Below, in pieces: positions 43,695 to 63,125 of a stretch of DNA of 64,000 nucleotides. The DNA is from Methanococcoides sp. AM1 (GTDB lineage Archaea > Halobacteriota > Methanosarcinia > Methanosarcinales > Methanosarcinaceae). Each line of letters starts with the position of its first letter. The stretch's first letter is position 1. The notes beneath the pieces are model-generated. The model did no database searches and was not told the origin of the DNA. It saw only the letters and a list, made by a program, of their open reading frames with translations. Location of the stretch: contig NZ_CAAGSW010000004.1 of assembly GCF_900774055.1 (NCBI RefSeq), positions 124,001-188,000 on the forward strand, given 5' to 3'. Made by a program: the position numbers and the translations under genes.

Positions 43695-43746
43695 TATTAC
43701 CTGAATATACTCAACTTCTTTTCTTTTCTTTTCTTTTCTATTCTTT
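43688..43746 (+). terminator. Terminator of purSQ overlapping the stop codon
   Basis: CAGGTAATATTACCTG at 43688-43703 is a perfect 16-base palindrome containing the purQ TAA. It is followed by four CTTTT-type units (43716-43746), the T-rich tract typical of archaeal termination. A second stem (GTCCGGCCCGAC with GTCGGACC, about 43810-43842) lies further on and may end the convergent rnhB transcript. Confidence 0.6.
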
Positions 43747-44568: not shown

Positions 44569-46815
44569 TCATACGAACAGGGTGAATATAAGATAACCGA
44601 CAGTGATCATGATTATTGAATGCTTCAGTCCGGAAAGCACATTACCTTCACCCATTGCTCCTGCCATGAGCCCGGAGCTTAATCCCTGAAGAAGGGAAGC
44701 ATGCATGAACAAACGAGTGTATGCTTCAAGGTCAAAGTTCCCGAGGAAGCCACCGGCCTGGGTTCCTGATTCAGCCATCTTTTCACCGGCATTTGCCATC
44801 TCGGCCAGGAAGGTCGTAGAGATAACATAGATGACACCAACGAACACGAAGAATGCAATATAAATGATGACTATGTAGATCATCATGTTCATTGAACGCT
44901 CACGTTTCATGGACTGTTCGGATGCCGCATCCCGTGCTGCTACCAGAAGCACTTCACCCACATCACCACTTGATTCATTGGCTTTTGTAATAAGGGTCAT
45001 TGAACGTGCTATAACATGAGTTCGAAGCCTGTTTGCAAACCTGATGAGAGCATCATTAACATTCATCCCCCAGAAGATATCCTTCCATATCCTGTTGATC
45101 TCTTTGCCGAGGTTTCCTTTACCGGAAGTTGCCATAAGTGTTATGGAATCACGAAGTGTCATTCCGGTCTCGTTAGTGCTTGCAAGCTTTTTTAAGAAAT
45201 CCGGGAAATTTTTCTCAAGGCTTTTCTTCCTGTGAGATTTAACCTCATGGAAAAGAGCAAGGGGCACTATCACAAGGAAAAGGCCAAGCACAATATAATC
45301 ATCAATAAAAGCAACGATATCTGATGTTGCAGAAAGGTCTCCTTTGTTTAACCAGAAGGGAATAATAATAACCAGAAATGCAATTGGTAATGTAATAGCA
45401 AGTGTATAAAGAGGTTGATCTAGCAGCGGTTTGACCGGATTCTGCAAGAAACCCCTTAATGATAATGATTTTTTAGACTTTGCAAGATCCTCATACAATG
45501 CCCTCTCCCTAACCTTTTCTTCAGTCTCATCTATCAGTTCACCTGCTTCATTATATACAGGTTCAAGATATGATGGGACTTGAGGAATACCATGATCAAG
45601 GACTAATGTAGTAGGCAGGATATCGGGCTCTCCACTCTCACTTGGAGTGATAATGCTGATCATCACAACAAACATCAGTGAACCGATCGGTAGTACAGCA
45701 TAAATAATCGCATATACCATGACATCTGATCCGGAACCCATTACTGCCATCATAACACCAAGTATGATGATGAAGAGAGGACCGGCAACAAATGCCGTAA
45801 CATAGGATTCTGAGAGCAATGCCAGGGTCTCCAGGAATCCTTTCTGGTCCACAACCGATTTTTGCAGGTACTGTTCAGACTTATCCTGGAAATAATGTGG
45901 AATACTTCCACCACTGTCAATGATGGTCAGAAGATTCTGCATCAGATCCTGGAACCTTTCTGAAGGAGTTATATCGCTAATGTTCGAGATAGCAGTTCTC
46001 AGGTCGTGTCCGAAATAGTCCATCTCACGCAGGATAGCATCAATTTCTTTTGAAACCTCACCATAAGTATCCTCTGAACGAGCCAATAGCCTGAATACCT
46101 CGATGATATTCATACCACCCTTACAAAGAGCATACATGAAAGTTACAGCATAAGGCAAATGCCTGTCAATGTCACCCTTGCGTTCACCTGCCTTGAAGCC
46201 CGGGTAAAGCATAAACATTCCATAGGTGACACCTCCAAGAATTATAGCAAAAAGAACGGTTATCAAAAATCCGATAAACAATGATTTAAATTGTAGTATC
46301 CAGGAAGTAGATGTACTGAGCTCCAGATTTGTTATAGTAGCAGGAAGTCCGACCAAATTCACAACAACATGCGAGAGGAAAAGACCCAGAATGAGGCCAA
46401 TTACACAGCAAAGCACTGAATAGAAGATAGCATTTGAAACATACATCTCATATGAAAGCGGCACACGTGCCTGGAAAAGTTGCACCTGAAGATGTGCATA
46501 TTTTTCTTTCCTTGCCTTTATCCGATCACCTAGTAATGCAAAAGGGATCTTTTTAAAGATCGTGAAGTATTCAAAGAACCTGTCAAACGTTCCATTGTCC
46601 TTTTTTGGCCCTCCGGATAGCTTTCGTTTGATACCACTAAGGAATGGATCCTTTTTAGTTCCGGAAGAAAGTGAGGAGGAAATGCTACCCTCCGTTTCTA
46701 TCGAAGGTTCGATATCCTGAAGACTCCCCTGTTCTTCGACAAGGTCAGCAATATCAGGAACTTTTTCCTGCATTTCGCCTTCATGAGCTTTTTCCAGAGA
46801 CCTGTCTTCTGTCAC
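44569..46815 (-). CDS. Type IV pilus/Tad-like membrane platform protein with two F domains (748 aa)
   Basis: An acidic soluble N terminus (about 1-85), then a first T2SSF domain (membrane helices around 130-200 and 340-400, soluble part KGGMNIIEVFRLLARSEDT) ending in SIITPSE, a linker of about 60 residues, then a second T2SSF domain (helices at about 480-530 and the C terminus; soluble part NETGMTLRDSITLMATSGKG). It is thus a fused TadB+TadC, as in haloarchaeal PilC-type proteins. It anchors the ATPase encoded 19 bases upstream. No pilin gene is adjacent, so the exported substrate is unknown. Confidence 0.88.
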   Translation of the reverse strand: MTEDRSLEKAHEGEMQEKVPDIADLVEEQGSLQDIEPSIETEGSISSSLSSGTKKDPFLSGIKRKLSGGPKKDNGTFDRFFEYFTIFKKIPFALLGDRIKARKEKYAHLQVQLFQARVPLSYEMYVSNAIFYSVLCCVIGLILGLFLSHVVVNLVGLPATITNLELSTSTSWILQFKSLFIGFLITVLFAIILGGVTYGMFMLYPGFKAGERKGDIDRHLPYAVTFMYALCKGGMNIIEVFRLLARSEDTYGEVSKEIDAILREMDYFGHDLRTAISNISDITPSERFQDLMQNLLTIIDSGGSIPHYFQDKSEQYLQKSVVDQKGFLETLALLSESYVTAFVAGPLFIIILGVMMAVMGSGSDVMVYAIIYAVLPIGSLMFVVMISIITPSESGEPDILPTTLVLDHGIPQVPSYLEPVYNEAGELIDETEEKVRERALYEDLAKSKKSLSLRGFLQNPVKPLLDQPLYTLAITLPIAFLVIIIPFWLNKGDLSATSDIVAFIDDYIVLGLFLVIVPLALFHEVKSHRKKSLEKNFPDFLKKLASTNETGMTLRDSITLMATSGKGNLGKEINRIWKDIFWGMNVNDALIRFANRLRTHVIARSMTLITKANESSGDVGEVLLVAARDAASEQSMKRERSMNMMIYIVIIYIAFFVFVGVIYVISTTFLAEMANAGEKMAESGTQAGGFLGNFDLEAYTRLFMHASLLQGLSSGLMAGAMGEGNVLSGLKHSIIMITVGYLIFTLFV

Positions 46816-46834: not shown

Positions 46835-49090
46835 TTATAGCAGATCGAGTTCCTTCAAGATTTTTTCCGGTGTGGATTGATAGGCATTAATGATACCAGA
46901 GATCTGCTTAAAGTCCTTAATATCATTGTCAACCATATATTCCAGTATACGCTGCCTGTTTGTCAATTCCCTGTTGACATCCATTGTACCCCAGCCTCTT
47001 CTCATACGGATATCCATCAAAGCTTTTGAATCACCTGTTCTATGGAAGACATCGGTCGAAGAATCCCACACGAAAACATCATTGGTCCTGACGTTTCGTG
47101 TATTTGGATCAATGTCAATGATCTCCACCACTTTCAGGTTCCTTCTGACACGCTTGCCCATGGAATATGTCTGTGCCTGGATACACATAATATCCAGTGC
47201 CTGTATCATATTACGCGGTACACTGATGGGCGGGTTCTCAAGTCTGTGGATAGCTGAAGGAACTGAATCTGCATGCATTGTCGAGAAAGTTGTATGTCCT
47301 GTGGACATTGCCTGGAACAATGTCAGAGCTTCTTTACCACGGACTTCTCCTACAAGGAGATATTCCGGACGTTGACGTAATGCAGCTTTAAGAAGATCAT
47401 ACATATCTACAGAACCACGATCGTCTGCTGTGAAGGAATCTCTGGTCATACCCGGGATCCAATTAGGATGAGGCAATTTCAATTCCCTTGTATCTTCAAG
47501 ACTTATGATCTTAGCCTTTTCAGGGATAAATAGAGATACAGCATTCAGGGAAGAAGTCTTACCGGATGCGGTACCACCAGCATAGATCAGGCTCTTGTTA
47601 TTCTCAATACATAACCAAAGATATGCCATACATTCCGGAGAGAATGTTCCCCATTTCAGGAGGTCTACCGGGGTGATAGGCTCTTCACTGAACTTCCTTA
47701 TCGTAAATGTACTGCCATGGGTTGTAACACTGACACCCAGTGTCATCTGTATCCTTGATCCATCCGGCATAGTTGCATCGACCATCGGATCTGCCACTGA
47801 GATGTGCTTCCCACTCTTCTGTGCAAGCTGGATAATGAAAGAATCAAGTTCTTTTTCTTCAAAAATAATGTTAGTAGCAATGTTCTGATATGAACGATGA
47901 TAAAGAAAGATCGGCTTACTGTGTCCATTACCGGAAATATCCTCTATTGAGCTATCATTCATCAGTGGATCGATCTTGCCGAATCTGATGAAATCCCGCT
48001 TTATGTAATAAAATACCTTCTCAAGCATTGCAGGAGTTATTTCGATAGCATAGTCCTTGATGATGTCACGTATCTCTTTTTCAAGCACTTCTTCCTTGTC
48101 TTTATTTTCATCAATATCTTCTACCAGAAGCTCATTGTGAAGACGGTCCTTTATCTCTGTCAGGAAGACCTGCTCAAAGTCAGAAAGTGAAGGTTCGACT
48201 ATATAATAGATATGATCATTGCGATCCTCGTTATAAAGAATGACAATAAAAACATATGGTTCCGAGGTCCAGTAACGATCAATTTCTTCATAGTCCTCAA
48301 CTCCTGTGAATTCAGAAAGGATCCCATGGACTTCCGGGTCATAAGGCTCAATCTCCTCATTCTCCCCTCTAAAGAGATTCTTTATTTTATCGACAATACC
48401 TATCTTTTCAGCTGGAATTCCTTCATCGTCCTCAGAACCATGTTCTTCCTGAAGTAAGTCTTCCTGAAGGATATCTTCGGAAACACTATCTTTAAGAATA
48501 TTCCCTTCGACAGCATCTTCAAAGCCCTTGTTGGCTTTTTCCGGATCAGCGATCTTATTTCTACTTTCCAGTTCATCGACAATATGAATATCACTGACAT
48601 CTTTGTTATCAGTGCTATCCTCCCCTGTCAGCTCAATATGCGTCTTTGGGAACGTTTCTGTGATGGTACGCTCTTCGTGTAACGATTGATCAAACCCTTC
48701 CGGATCGATGGAAACAGGTTCAAAACCATTGGGATAACCATCTTTTGATCTCCGATCCTGTGTGGAGGATCCTGATTCGAATTCCGGACGGGAAAATTTA
48801 TCATATCTTGGCAGAAGGATATTAAGTTCTTCATCAGCTTCATTATCAAAACTTTTCCTTTCAGGGGAAGAACCAATACTTTTTCTTGGTCTGCTCCTTG
48901 GTGTTAGAATAACTGCTTCAAGATCATCTTCACTAATATCATTACTATCGTGAAATCCGGACAGGTTCTCGCTAAGATCCTCTCCTTCATTCGTCGTATC
49001 AGGGTCGTTTCCTACAACAGGCTTCTGATCAGCATGTTCAATGCCATCCAACCTGTCGTCATTCAGATTTTCTTCTGCCTCTTTTGCCAT
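46835..49090 (-). CDS. Type IV pilus/Tad-like secretion ATPase (751 aa)
   Basis: The VirB11/PilT-like ATPase domain (about 440-680) has Walker A GGTASGKTS, the Asp box SLEDTRELKLPHPNWIPG, a Walker B-type LLVGEVRGKEA and the His box TGHTTFSTMHAD. Ahead of it is a domain typical of archaeal PilB/TadA proteins (about 260-430) and, before that, a very long acidic, disordered stretch (about 1-250) full of Asp, Glu and Ser. Archaeal ATPases of this class are usually 500-650 residues, so the extension is unusual. It forms an operon with the double-F platform gene. Confidence 0.9.
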   Translation of the reverse strand: MAKEAEENLNDDRLDGIEHADQKPVVGNDPDTTNEGEDLSENLSGFHDSNDISEDDLEAVILTPRSRPRKSIGSSPERKSFDNEADEELNILLPRYDKFSRPEFESGSSTQDRRSKDGYPNGFEPVSIDPEGFDQSLHEERTITETFPKTHIELTGEDSTDNKDVSDIHIVDELESRNKIADPEKANKGFEDAVEGNILKDSVSEDILQEDLLQEEHGSEDDEGIPAEKIGIVDKIKNLFRGENEEIEPYDPEVHGILSEFTGVEDYEEIDRYWTSEPYVFIVILYNEDRNDHIYYIVEPSLSDFEQVFLTEIKDRLHNELLVEDIDENKDKEEVLEKEIRDIIKDYAIEITPAMLEKVFYYIKRDFIRFGKIDPLMNDSSIEDISGNGHSKPIFLYHRSYQNIATNIIFEEKELDSFIIQLAQKSGKHISVADPMVDATMPDGSRIQMTLGVSVTTHGSTFTIRKFSEEPITPVDLLKWGTFSPECMAYLWLCIENNKSLIYAGGTASGKTSSLNAVSLFIPEKAKIISLEDTRELKLPHPNWIPGMTRDSFTADDRGSVDMYDLLKAALRQRPEYLLVGEVRGKEALTLFQAMSTGHTTFSTMHADSVPSAIHRLENPPISVPRNMIQALDIMCIQAQTYSMGKRVRRNLKVVEIIDIDPNTRNVRTNDVFVWDSSTDVFHRTGDSKALMDIRMRRGWGTMDVNRELTNRQRILEYMVDNDIKDFKQISGIINAYQSTPEKILKELDLL

Positions 49091-58857: not shown

Positions 58858-60240
58858 TCACAGTATCAGGAAGCATATCCAACCAATGAAGGTCAGTATG
58901 AATGAGTGCTTCAGACCTCCGGAAAGCCGGTTCTCTCCCAATTGTCCTGCAACCAGACCACTCATGAACCCCTGTAGAAGACATGCATGGAAAAGGGTAC
59001 GTATGAAAGCATCAGGATCAAAACCTCCAATAAAGGAACCTCCTGCAGAAGCACCTGCCACTGCCTGACTTGCTTCATACATAGTAGGAACAAAGCGAGT
59101 TGTCAGCATCAATATCACAAAGATGAACACGAAGAAAGCTATGTAGCTGATCACTACGTAAACAGCCATGTTACCACGACGTTCCCTCTCAAGTGTTTTT
59201 ATCTCGCTTGCATCCCTTGCAGCAGCTTCAAGTACAAATGACACACGACCACCTGCACGACTTGCCTGAGTGATCAGGGCTACTGCACGTGATATAAGAG
59301 GTGTGTTCATTCTTTTTGCGAAGTATTCGATGGTTTCTTCAAAGGAAATACCCCAAGAGACAGATGCATCCATTTTCTTGATCTCATCCGTCATTTCACC
59401 ATATTCACCCTTTGCAACAGTACCTAATGCTGCAGGGAGAGTAAGACCTGCCCTGCTCATTTCTGCAATATCACGCAGGAAATTTGGCATGTACTCTTCG
59501 ACCTTGTTAACAAATTTATGTTTTCTGTAATAGGTTATTGCTGGCGGGATAATAAATATCCATACCGAAAATAAGATAACGTGATCGATGGTTGGTGTTC
59601 CCCAGGTGAACGAGAATCCAATTATCATGAACAAAAGAGCAGCAGGCCCACTGAAGAACATAGCATAATAAGGATACCTATAAAATGCGTCTTTCGGATT
59701 CTTAAGGAATTCCTTTAAACGAATGTTCTTTCCTGACTCCCCAAGCTTCAGATCAATGACATATTGTTCGATCTTACCGAGTTCCCTCTCATCCATTTCC
59801 GGGATCTCAACCTCATTAATTACAATGGTTTCCCCGTTCGGACCCAACTCAATAGCTTCAGCAAGCTCACCAGATTCAGCAGACTCATCGGTTTCAGTAA
59901 ACTCATCGGCTTCAGCAAACTCACCGGTTTCAGTAAACTCATCGGCTTCAGCAAACTCATCGGCTTCAGCAAACTCATCGGCTTCAGCAAACTCATCGGC
60001 TTCAGCAAACTCACCGGTTTCAGTAAACTCATCGGTTTCAGTAAACTCATCGGCTTCAGCAAACTCATCGGCTTCAGCAAGCTTATCGGCTTCAGCAAAC
60101 TCACCGGTTTCAGTAAACTCATCGGCTTCAGCAAGCTTATCGGCTTCAGCAAACTCACCGGTTTCGGTAATATCATCAGATTCAGTAATCTCACTGGTCT
60201 CGATAATATCATCAGATCCAGTATTCTCTACATCCTTCAT
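58858..60240 (-). CDS. TadC-like platform protein with acidic repeat N terminus (460 aa)
   Basis: The first 150 residues are acidic, including 18 hexapeptide units (TETGEF/AEADEF type, about residues 25-132). Residues about 155-460 form a T2SSF domain with helices near 190-240 and at the C terminus, and the soluble part SRAGLTLPAALGTVAKGEYG. It corresponds to the second half of the fused protein at 44569-46815 (RERxxNMxVYVVIxYIAFFVF is shared). It begins four bases after the TadB stop, so the break falls in the old linker. Third gene of its operon with ATPase and TadB. Confidence 0.88.
   Translation of the reverse strand: MKDVENTGSDDIIETSEITESDDITETGEFAEADKLAEADEFTETGEFAEADKLAEADEFAEADEFTETDEFTETGEFAEADEFAEADEFAEADEFAEADEFTETGEFAEADEFTETDESAESGELAEAIELGPNGETIVINEVEIPEMDERELGKIEQYVIDLKLGESGKNIRLKEFLKNPKDAFYRYPYYAMFFSGPAALLFMIIGFSFTWGTPTIDHVILFSVWIFIIPPAITYYRKHKFVNKVEEYMPNFLRDIAEMSRAGLTLPAALGTVAKGEYGEMTDEIKKMDASVSWGISFEETIEYFAKRMNTPLISRAVALITQASRAGGRVSFVLEAAARDASEIKTLERERRGNMAVYVVISYIAFFVFIFVILMLTTRFVPTMYEASQAVAGASAGGSFIGGFDPDAFIRTLFHACLLQGFMSGLVAGQLGENRLSGGLKHSFILTFIGWICFLIL
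59845..60168. repeat. 18-bp tandem repeat (minisatellite) inside the tadC-like gene
   Basis: Exactly 324 bases, 18 units of 18 bases, coding on the minus strand for AEADEF, TETDEF, TETGEF and AEADKL variants. On the plus strand units read TCGGCTTCAGCAAACTCA with small changes. Outer units (AESGEL, AEAIEL) have drifted more than the inner ones, as expected of an array that grows and shrinks by slippage or recombination. Every change keeps the frame. Confidence 0.95.
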
Positions 60241-60244
60241 TATC

Positions 60245-61168
60245 TCAGTCCTCCGGCGTTATTGCACTGACAAGAACTATGAACATAAGAGTTCCAACTG
60301 GGATTATACCATATACCATCAGATAAAGGAACATAAAGTCAGCTCCACCCATCAATGCTACGATCGATATTACGACTATCAGGAAAAGAGGACCTGCGAC
60401 AAATGCAGTAACATATGTTTCACCCATAAGACCAAGCGTCTCAAGGAATTCCTTTTGTCTTTGCCTGTTGTCTATGAGATATTGATCGGCCTTGATCTTA
60501 AAGTAAGGCTCCAGATCACCACCTGATGTTACAACGGTAATAGAACCCTGCAGGAATTCCTGCATCATTGGAGAAGGGGTAGAAGCTGCAAGGTTCTTCA
60601 TTGCACTCACAAGGTTATACCCCAATACTTCAAGGTCACGCACAAGATATCTTGCTTCCACAGCAACTTCACCATAAATTTCATTGGATGCAAGGGAACG
60701 GAACAGATCTACCGGAAGAACTCCTGCTCCAGACATAGCGGACATATAATTAATACCATAGGGAAGCATCTGTTCTATCTTTCGTTTTCTGTCAGATGCC
60801 ACAATGGCCGGATAGAACATGGCGAAATAATAGATACTGCTGAAGCAGAGTCCTGCAAATGCAATACCTCCAAATACGCGGATCGCAAGGGTCTTATAGG
60901 CAACATATTTTGCAGTCCAGGCAGGGAAACCAAGTGCCATTCCGGAAATATCAGGAATTGGAATGATATAAAGGAGGGCATTGAATAGGATAAACAACAG
61001 CAATGTACTTAGAATTGCCATTAGGAGGACACCTGAAAGGTATCTGTCATAACCTATGTTGATCCTGCTTCTCAAAAGGTTTTTTCTAAGTGAGAAATAC
61101 TTTGAACGTTTGTTCACATAGTGTTTCCCAAATATTGCAAATGCAATACTAAAGTATGAATTATCCAT
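60245..61168 (-). CDS. TadB-like platform protein, first F domain only (307 aa)
   Basis: One T2SSF domain: helices near 50-75, 95-120 and two at the C terminus, soluble part SGAGVLPVDLFRSLASNEIYG (about 150-170). It ends ITPED, the same place where the first half of the fused protein (SIITPSE) meets its linker. It overlaps the ATPase gene by eight bases and precedes the TadC gene by four. It functions as half of the inner-membrane platform. Confidence 0.88.
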   Translation of the reverse strand: MDNSYFSIAFAIFGKHYVNKRSKYFSLRKNLLRSRINIGYDRYLSGVLLMAILSTLLLFILFNALLYIIPIPDISGMALGFPAWTAKYVAYKTLAIRVFGGIAFAGLCFSSIYYFAMFYPAIVASDRKRKIEQMLPYGINYMSAMSGAGVLPVDLFRSLASNEIYGEVAVEARYLVRDLEVLGYNLVSAMKNLAASTPSPMMQEFLQGSITVVTSGGDLEPYFKIKADQYLIDNRQRQKEFLETLGLMGETYVTAFVAGPLFLIVVISIVALMGGADFMFLYLMVYGIIPVGTLMFIVLVSAITPED

Positions 61169-63125
61169 TCAAATCCTGCCTTATTACTTTCAATAGTGTT
61201 TCTGGTTCACGTTTATACGCAACCACGATCTTAGAGAAGTCCCTGAAATGAGTTATCTTCTTCAAGCGTGCCCACTCCATGACATCCTGACGCTGCTGTA
61301 ACTCATCCCTCACCTTGGCCTCGGTCCAGCCTCTTGCATCCATAACACTCTCAAGAACATAGGAACGACCTGAGTACTGGAAAAGATCCTTTGCAGCATT
61401 CCATGAGAACACTTCATTTGTAAGCAACTCACCAGTCCTTGGATCAACACCAACGATCTCTGTAAGAGTCTTACACCGCCTGACCCTTTCACCATCAACT
61501 TTTACCTGAACCTGTAAAGACACAATATCAAGTGCCTGTATCATGATCCTCGGAATATTGATAGGAGGGTTCTCAAGCCTGTGTACGATCGACTGCACAG
61601 AGTCAGCGTGCATTGTCGAGAACGTTGTGTGTCCTGTTGACATTGCCTGGAACAGAACATATGCTTCAGCACCTCTTACTTCACCCACCAGGATATATTC
61701 CGGACGCTGCCTCAGTGATGCTCTCAGCAGTTCGTACATTTCAATGGAACCTTTTGATTCACCACCAAAGGCTTCACGTGTAACACCAGGGATCCAGTTG
61801 GGGTGAGCAAGGTTCAATTCCCTTGTATCCTCAATAGAAACGATCTTCATTTCCGGCTGGATAAATATTGAAATAGCATTCATTGCAGAGGTCTTTCCTG
61901 AAGCAGTACCTCCGGAGAAGATAACACTCTTGCTTGAATCCACAGCAAGCCACATGTATGCCAGCATTGCTGTAGAGAACGTATGATAACCAATAAGATC
62001 GGAAGGTGTTATTGGATCCTCATTGAATCGACGTATAGTAAAAGTACTACCTCGGGTAGTGATCTCCCTTCCAAGTGTTAATTGTATACGTGATCCATCA
62101 GGCAATGTTGCATCGAGCAACGGATTTGCGATGGAAATATGTTTTCCACATATTTGTGCAAGCCTGATAGCGAGTGGATCCAGATGATCATCCGAATCAA
62201 ACAGCACATTTGAAGGAATGGACTCATGCTTCTTATGGTATATGTAGATCGGCGTATTAGGACCATCACAGGATATATCTTCTATTAGCAGATCACGCAT
62301 CATGGCATCGATCTCACCATATCCGAGATAGTCACGGATGATGTAATACATGATCTTCTCCCGTGTAAGGGTAGTGAGCCGGATCCTATAATCAACAAGG
62401 AAGGTATTAACGTTAGTACGAAGGTATTCTTCTGCAACTTCCCTTGACATGCTTTTCAAGTGTGCATGAAGAACCTCAGCAATACGCTCCTTTATCATCC
62501 TGAACAATTTTTCTTCTTCATCAGAAAATTTTGGCTCAAGGACCTGATATTGATACTCATGAAGATCAGAATTATAAGAGATCCTAACATAAGAATAAGG
62601 TGGATTTATTTCAAAGAACTCGATCTCTTCAAACCCGGACTCTTCATCCAGAGCAATATCTACAAGAGGACCATGAATGGCCACATCATATTCCTCTACC
62701 TCGTATTCTTTTGTCTTAAAAGCATTGATCACTCGATGATAGAAGGGTTCTTTCTTGAAAATGAACATTGGAGTCTCTTCAAACTCCTCAACTTCTTCTT
62801 CCTCTTCTGCAATCTCTTTTATCGTCTTTTCCCATAAGGATTCAATTTCCTCTGGTAGTTTGTTTTGATCCTCACTTTCATATTCTTCATCATTGGAGAT
62901 GCTTTCCATGTCCTCGATATTATCACCGAGTTCTTCTGTGTAAAGCTCCCCTGAAAGAGAATCATCTTCAACTATATCTACTATATCAACGATGCCATCT
63001 TCCACAGACTCTATCTCGTCTTCCTTCTCGGCACTTTGAGGATTCAAATTTTCAACCATTATACCACGCCTTTGGTAATCGTCATTCCTGATCATAACAA
63101 CAATAAGAACTATTAAGGCCCCCAT
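61161..63125 (-). CDS. Type IV pilus/Tad-like secretion ATPase (654 aa)
   Basis: VirB11/PilT-like ATPase: Walker A GGTASGKTS, SIEDTRELNLAHPNWIPG, VGEVRGAEA and TGHTTFSTMHAD, closely matching the ATPase at 46835. The N terminus (about 1-120) is acidic but shorter than in that paralogue. The start is undecided: ATG 63125 has AAGGA six bases upstream but gives a hydrophobic MGALIVLIVV opening; ATG 63059 (MVENLNPQ) lacks this. A TATA box (ACTATATAAG, about 63167-63177) lies upstream. Heads the operon ATPase-TadB-TadC. Confidence 0.9.
   Translation of the reverse strand: MGALIVLIVVMIRNDDYQRRGIMVENLNPQSAEKEDEIESVEDGIVDIVDIVEDDSLSGELYTEELGDNIEDMESISNDEEYESEDQNKLPEEIESLWEKTIKEIAEEEEEVEEFEETPMFIFKKEPFYHRVINAFKTKEYEVEEYDVAIHGPLVDIALDEESGFEEIEFFEINPPYSYVRISYNSDLHEYQYQVLEPKFSDEEEKLFRMIKERIAEVLHAHLKSMSREVAEEYLRTNVNTFLVDYRIRLTTLTREKIMYYIIRDYLGYGEIDAMMRDLLIEDISCDGPNTPIYIYHKKHESIPSNVLFDSDDHLDPLAIRLAQICGKHISIANPLLDATLPDGSRIQLTLGREITTRGSTFTIRRFNEDPITPSDLIGYHTFSTAMLAYMWLAVDSSKSVIFSGGTASGKTSAMNAISIFIQPEMKIVSIEDTRELNLAHPNWIPGVTREAFGGESKGSIEMYELLRASLRQRPEYILVGEVRGAEAYVLFQAMSTGHTTFSTMHADSVQSIVHRLENPPINIPRIMIQALDIVSLQVQVKVDGERVRRCKTLTEIVGVDPRTGELLTNEVFSWNAAKDLFQYSGRSYVLESVMDARGWTEAKVRDELQQRQDVMEWARLKKITHFRDFSKIVVAYKREPETLLKVIRQDLNG

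Follow-up and report, generated by a model that had tools for sequence, protein, structure and literature searches.

In the window (the whole stretch of 64,000 nucleotides from Methanococcoides sp. AM1 analysed here), a predicted pilus-assembly protein is made from two adjacent genes, and an array of short tandem repeats lies at their junction. This arrangement raises the question of what the array is, whether it is connected with the division of the gene, and what it might do for the protein.

The array-bearing gene and its neighbourhood

The array occupies the N-terminus of the second-half gene of a type IV pilus (T4P) platform protein (positions 58858–60240, minus strand; 460 aa), whose T2SSF domain was located at residues 254–380 (PF00482, E = 1.4e-20). 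The same three-gene unit contains the first-half gene (60245–61168, minus strand; 307 aa, likewise T2SSF) and a gene assigned by a profile match to a VirB11/FlaI-like secretion ATPase (61161–63125, minus strand). The stop of the first-half gene lies 4 nt before the next ATG (position 60240), and a Shine–Dalgarno-like GGAGG (60250–60254, minus strand) is situated at the end of the first-half gene, 9 nt before that ATG. GGAGG was present ahead of the second-half start in all 11 genomes printed, with variable spacing. The two genes, 4 nt apart, are probably translationally coupled.

The T2SSF domain was detected in both halves with 74 and 54 bits, compared with a curated cut-off of 25.2 bits, and on these matches we classify the protein as a T2SSF/TadC/ArlJ-like platform of a predicted type IV pilus, made by two genes. 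The equivalog cut-offs of three NCBIfam ArlJ/FlaJ models (400–570) were missed, with scores of at most 88.9 bits, a weak test given that each half covers only part of the model, and the ATPase scored 401.5 bits against the archaellum FlaI equivalog, below its cut-off of 550. An NCBIfam EntC match at residues 5–131 of the second half (34.9 bits, cut-off 770) was taken as low-complexity similarity.

A second ATPase/platform pair in the window, comprising an ATPase gene (46835–49090) and a fused platform paralogue (44569–46815, minus strand; 748 aa), served as a comparator for the site of the split. The first half aligned to residues 89–393 of the fused paralogue and the second half, from its residue 166, to residues 444–744; the array-bearing tail therefore faces the 50-residue linker 394–443. 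A preliminary description had placed the array where the gene is split, which this alignment bears out, and had regarded it as an expanded TadC linker, which it does not: the second half is a separate protein, and the array forms its free N-terminal tail. By eye, the N-terminal region of the ATPase in the fused pair is acidic and long (>200 residues).

Structure of the array and copying at the DNA level

Tandem Repeats Finder (TRF) reported a repeat at 59855–60165 with a period of 18, 17.3 copies, 87% matches, zero indels and a score of 454. Together with the in-frame reading, this gave 17 clean 18-bp units (59860–60165, minus strand) encoding the acidic hexapeptide E(A/T/S)(D/G)(E/K)(F/L/S)(A/T), with unit DNA of GAA GCC GAT GAG TTT GCT and few substitutions. 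The clean hexads occupy residues 26–127 of the 460-aa protein; three degenerate hexads that keep this register (GSDDII, ETSEIT and ESDDIT; 60166–60219, minus strand) precede them, and one (EAIELG; 59842–59859, minus strand) follows at the 3' edge of the array. The figure of eighteen units given previously is correct when the degenerate EAIELG is included.

We compared the array with codon-shuffled controls, and the maximum TRF scores were 88 for the array (n = 200) and 46 for the gene (n = 200), compared with 454 for the real sequence; a chance origin is excluded. The mean unit–unit nucleotide identity (0.877) exceeded the maximum obtained from 1000 synonymous re-codings of the same peptides (0.746), and the units were therefore copied as DNA. 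The array is in frame within a 460-aa ORF without stops, and 18 bp is a multiple of three. Thus, the in-frame 18-bp minisatellite coding for acidic hexapeptides, as originally proposed, was confirmed by the TRF score, the frame reading and the shuffles; it has the features of such elements, namely head-to-tail, DNA-copied units of 10–60 bp, an intact frame and a copy number that differs between species.

Unit variants are interspersed along the array rather than representing one collapsed copy, and blocks like ETGEFA-EADKLA-EADEF come back within it, which suggests multi-unit duplications as well as single-unit ones. Every variant codon among the 17 units is non-silent, although about six changes do not suffice for a test. 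A 24-base unit pattern (≤3 mismatches) matched the window's genome 15 times, always within the array. In a sample consisting of the window and 20 stretches of 20 kb (464 kb of the 2.48-Mb genome), no other array with a period <50 bp exceeded a TRF score of 148, and four TRF rows at three places, with periods of 204–360 bp, outscored the array. The window also contains a short TTCTT microsatellite (43716–43746, 6.2 copies), and elsewhere in the genome (locus L069, 9372–10725) a large 360-bp tandem repeat with a TRF score of 2064 perhaps encodes a repeat-domain protein.

Age of the split

A search of 237 genomes of the class gave a single match in each of 70 genomes at E ≤ 1e-61, and none at that threshold in the other 167. 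All 70 orthologues are separate open frames of 325–466 aa, and the split is therefore common to two families (f1, 56 genomes, which includes Methanococcoides; f3, 14 genomes). Among the weaker matches listed in a search of the order (185 genomes, E ≤ 1e-50), E-values ranged from 9.8e-60 to 1.2e-54 and frames from 546 to 957 aa, lengths consistent with fused paralogues. The exception, a match of fused-paralogue strength (G065:C2:1050021-1050917), has a frame of only 332 aa and could represent a second split or a frameshift.

We read the N-termini of 43 of the 70 orthologues (11/11 in the genus, 25/45 elsewhere in the family and 7/14 in f3); for the other 27, frame length was the sole criterion, and at 325–346 aa these frames leave no room for such an array. 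Arrays were found in nine orthologues and were absent from 61, of which 34 had been read and 27 assessed by frame length. A 409-aa frame in G012 was rejected as an array, the extra length being an open stretch that precedes the probable start. Because the split occurs in 70/70 orthologues and the array in 9/70, the split is the older of the two and did not depend on the array, and we abandoned the hypothesis that the array had brought about or facilitated it. Judged from these orthologues, the array is dispensable in general, since 61 do without one (27 by frame length only).

We also used TRF on six long fused ORFs of f4 (L093–L098) and detected no repeat between the halves. Repeats filling the inter-half linker of fused paralogues were accordingly rejected, as TRF repeats appeared in only two of the six, with a period of 201 bp and in the N-terminal tail of the first half. 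In these two (L093 in G149 and L098 in G148), that tail carries a 201-bp (67-aa) duplication with 1.9 copies.

Turnover of the array within Methanococcoides

Arrays were present in 6 of 11 Methanococcoides genomes and in none of the 25 genomes read from elsewhere in the family. In a 21-row tree without f3 rows, these six group on one branch with support of 100/98. The hexads differ among genomes: EADEFA in G000 (the window's genome, with 17 units), EADELA in G004, EVDELA/EADEIA in G006 and ETGEIA in M. vulcani (G010). In G003 and G005, the unit comprises 12 residues of the DIVESVDTADSD type, both halves of which partly fit the hexad register.

Tail length to a fixed anchor was 173 residues in G000, 149 in G004, 137 in G006, 160 in G003 and 175 in G005, and with one genome per species, copy numbers are compared between species only. 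G004 and G006 are 96.4% identical over 13.5 kb, yet their tails are two units apart; G003 and G005 (94.2% identity) differ by 15 residues, a non-whole number of hexads, with the frame kept. Repeat number is hence not fixed across species (149 versus 137 and 160 versus 175 residues), and the length differences seen between species keep the frame. The M. vulcani contigs C10 and C14 both stop inside the array (end of L048 and start of L016), with 5.3 copies (100% matches) and 6.1 copies (97% matches), respectively, up to the contig ends.

Unit identities between species ranged from 0.772 to 0.800 among G000, G004 and G006. Within-species identities were above this range in G000 (0.877) and G004 (0.827) and not in G006 (0.786), so that homogenization within species is clear only in some (G000 and G004). 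Silent unit variants are present in G004 and G006. The array is younger than the split, and its units and copy number are lineage-specific.

An unrelated array in a second family

The most interesting part of the survey, which the preliminary description had not foreseen, is an array in f3. G119, G120 and G121 (genus g18) carry 42-bp arrays of 8.3, 5.4 and 5.5 copies, respectively, as counted in assemblies broken into 120 to 220 contigs. The unit resembles IDEKEETPPEDTIA, and the arrays directly follow a TTG start, at the same position as the Methanococcoides array; they (loci L089–L091 and L099–L101) are unrelated in sequence to the 18-bp array. Another member of g18, G118, has about one 42-bp unit. 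Arrays were thus found in three of the seven f3 genomes read, and G117, G126 and G133 have short tails.

Unit identities (0.837, 0.848 and 0.805 in G119–G121) were above all 1000 synonymous re-codings in each case; therefore, the 42-bp units were also copied as DNA. The simplest reading is that the 18-bp and 42-bp arrays represent two independent gains. The f3 array tails are acidic, with a net charge of –0.27 to –0.35 per residue in G119–G121, although two origins are few as evidence for convergence on acidity.

Properties of the tail

The proteins of this type place their T2SSF-domain side in the cytoplasm. Two TM-like stretches (residues 193–211 and 217–238) lie between the tail and the T2SSF domain, so that the tail and the domain should share one side of the membrane. 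In G000, residues 1–133 carry a net charge of –0.39 per residue, and the charge–hydropathy line places them with disordered sequences. An AlphaFold model from a two-row alignment (mean pLDDT 38.1) was too poor to show disorder, and matches to solved structures were set aside: 9e5c (low-complexity, residues 10–129, E = 7.7e-17), YusO (E = 0.88) and PilC (E = 0.95).

Between G003 and G005, the acidic non-repeat part of the tail shows 0 amino-acid and 2 silent codon changes among 49 codons, and the protein body shows 2 amino-acid and 15 silent codon changes among 200 codons. These counts make a thin case that selection may keep the tail acidic rather than at one length; however, the changes are few, and homogenization alone could hold a unit acidic for a while.

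Origin and possible role of the array

We consider it probable that the array is a coding minisatellite and that the N-terminal tail which holds it, in the second half of a T4P platform made in two pieces, is a free, acidic end that lies in the cytoplasm and is probably disordered. Units would be gained and lost through slippage or unequal recombination, the frame would survive because the length changes are multiples of three bases, and the tail would tolerate them because it is a free end. Selection would hold the tail acidic and constrain its length loosely. The tail might then act as a charged, flexible element beside the motor ATPase and influence assembly mildly at most.

Several other explanations were weighed against this one. 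It is possible, though doubtful, that neutral slippage at a permissive end produced an array without a role, whose acidity was inherited from the founding unit. The 61 orthologues without an array fit this idea, as do the exclusively non-silent variant codons of G000, expected if the array is little screened; however, G004 and G006 depart from that pattern with their silent variants, the acid-rich non-repeat tail of G003 and G005 is identical in protein, and the unrelated array of the second family is acidic too. A contingency locus, in line with the preliminary description, would gain and lose units inside populations, so that the length of the tail would tune how pili assemble or adhere. This seems unlikely: turnover between close species and an array in the same slot of a second family would suit it, but the same 61 orthologues (27 by frame length only) argue against it, and an on/off switch is not indicated because the length changes seen keep the frame.

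That the tail stands in for the lost covalent linker, holding together the two halves or the ATPase, appears very improbable; its position at the split and the close, probably coupled partner genes would accord with such a role, whereas those 61 orthologues (27 by frame length only) are split and yet lack an array. The unit number in the window could itself be an assembly artefact, as mis-sizing is possible if short reads were used, the array spans 306–324 bp and the M. vulcani assembly breaks within its own array. We regard this as quite unlikely, given that the single-contig genomes G005 and G006 hold arrays and that the window's unit variants are interspersed, unlike a single collapsed copy. 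A bolder proposal, which we hold to be improbable, is that the split-platform junction is a recurrent slot in which independent hypervariable acidic tails would set platform–ATPase engagement, as an evolvable dial of length and charge.

The minisatellite tail that we favour offers a natural series: at a single site in a core pilus-assembly protein, the array ranges from absent to 17 units, with about one unit as an intermediate, across two separate groups. Because this series exists, tail length and charge become a testable variable in archaeal pilus assembly. In addition, such arrays can break or mis-size assemblies.

Comparison with known systems

A literature search, mostly at the level of listings and abstracts, found no description of this array, and we do not claim its absence from print. 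In the relevant passages on archaeal type IV pilus modules, an ATPase is paired with a TadC-like membrane protein, as here; archaeal loci with ATPase/tadC but without pilins are known, and some crenarchaeal systems have a TadC-like component from two genes (PMC4858521). Those passages make no mention of a split in Methanosarcinaceae or of junction repeats, both of which are present here. Compared with the PilB3/PilC3-type pili of Haloferax, the ATPase matched the PilB3_N Pfam model weakly (20 bits, below the 27-bit cut-off), and the platform is here split.

Satellites lying inside genes are known from archaea; overall, satellites are most numerous in Methanosarcina, and short multiple-of-three units, predominant in Halobacteria, are taken as coding repeats (PMC6749651). 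The in-frame coding minisatellites and low-complexity regions of prokaryotes, as outlined in two reports (PMC6749651, PMC6821194), likewise consist of tandem units within a gene that yield amino-acid repeats. In contrast to known coding minisatellites, the present array lies in a core pilus platform protein, is confined to one tail and has an unrelated second array at the same site. What is new is thus a coding minisatellite of a known type in an unusual place, the tail of a pilus platform.
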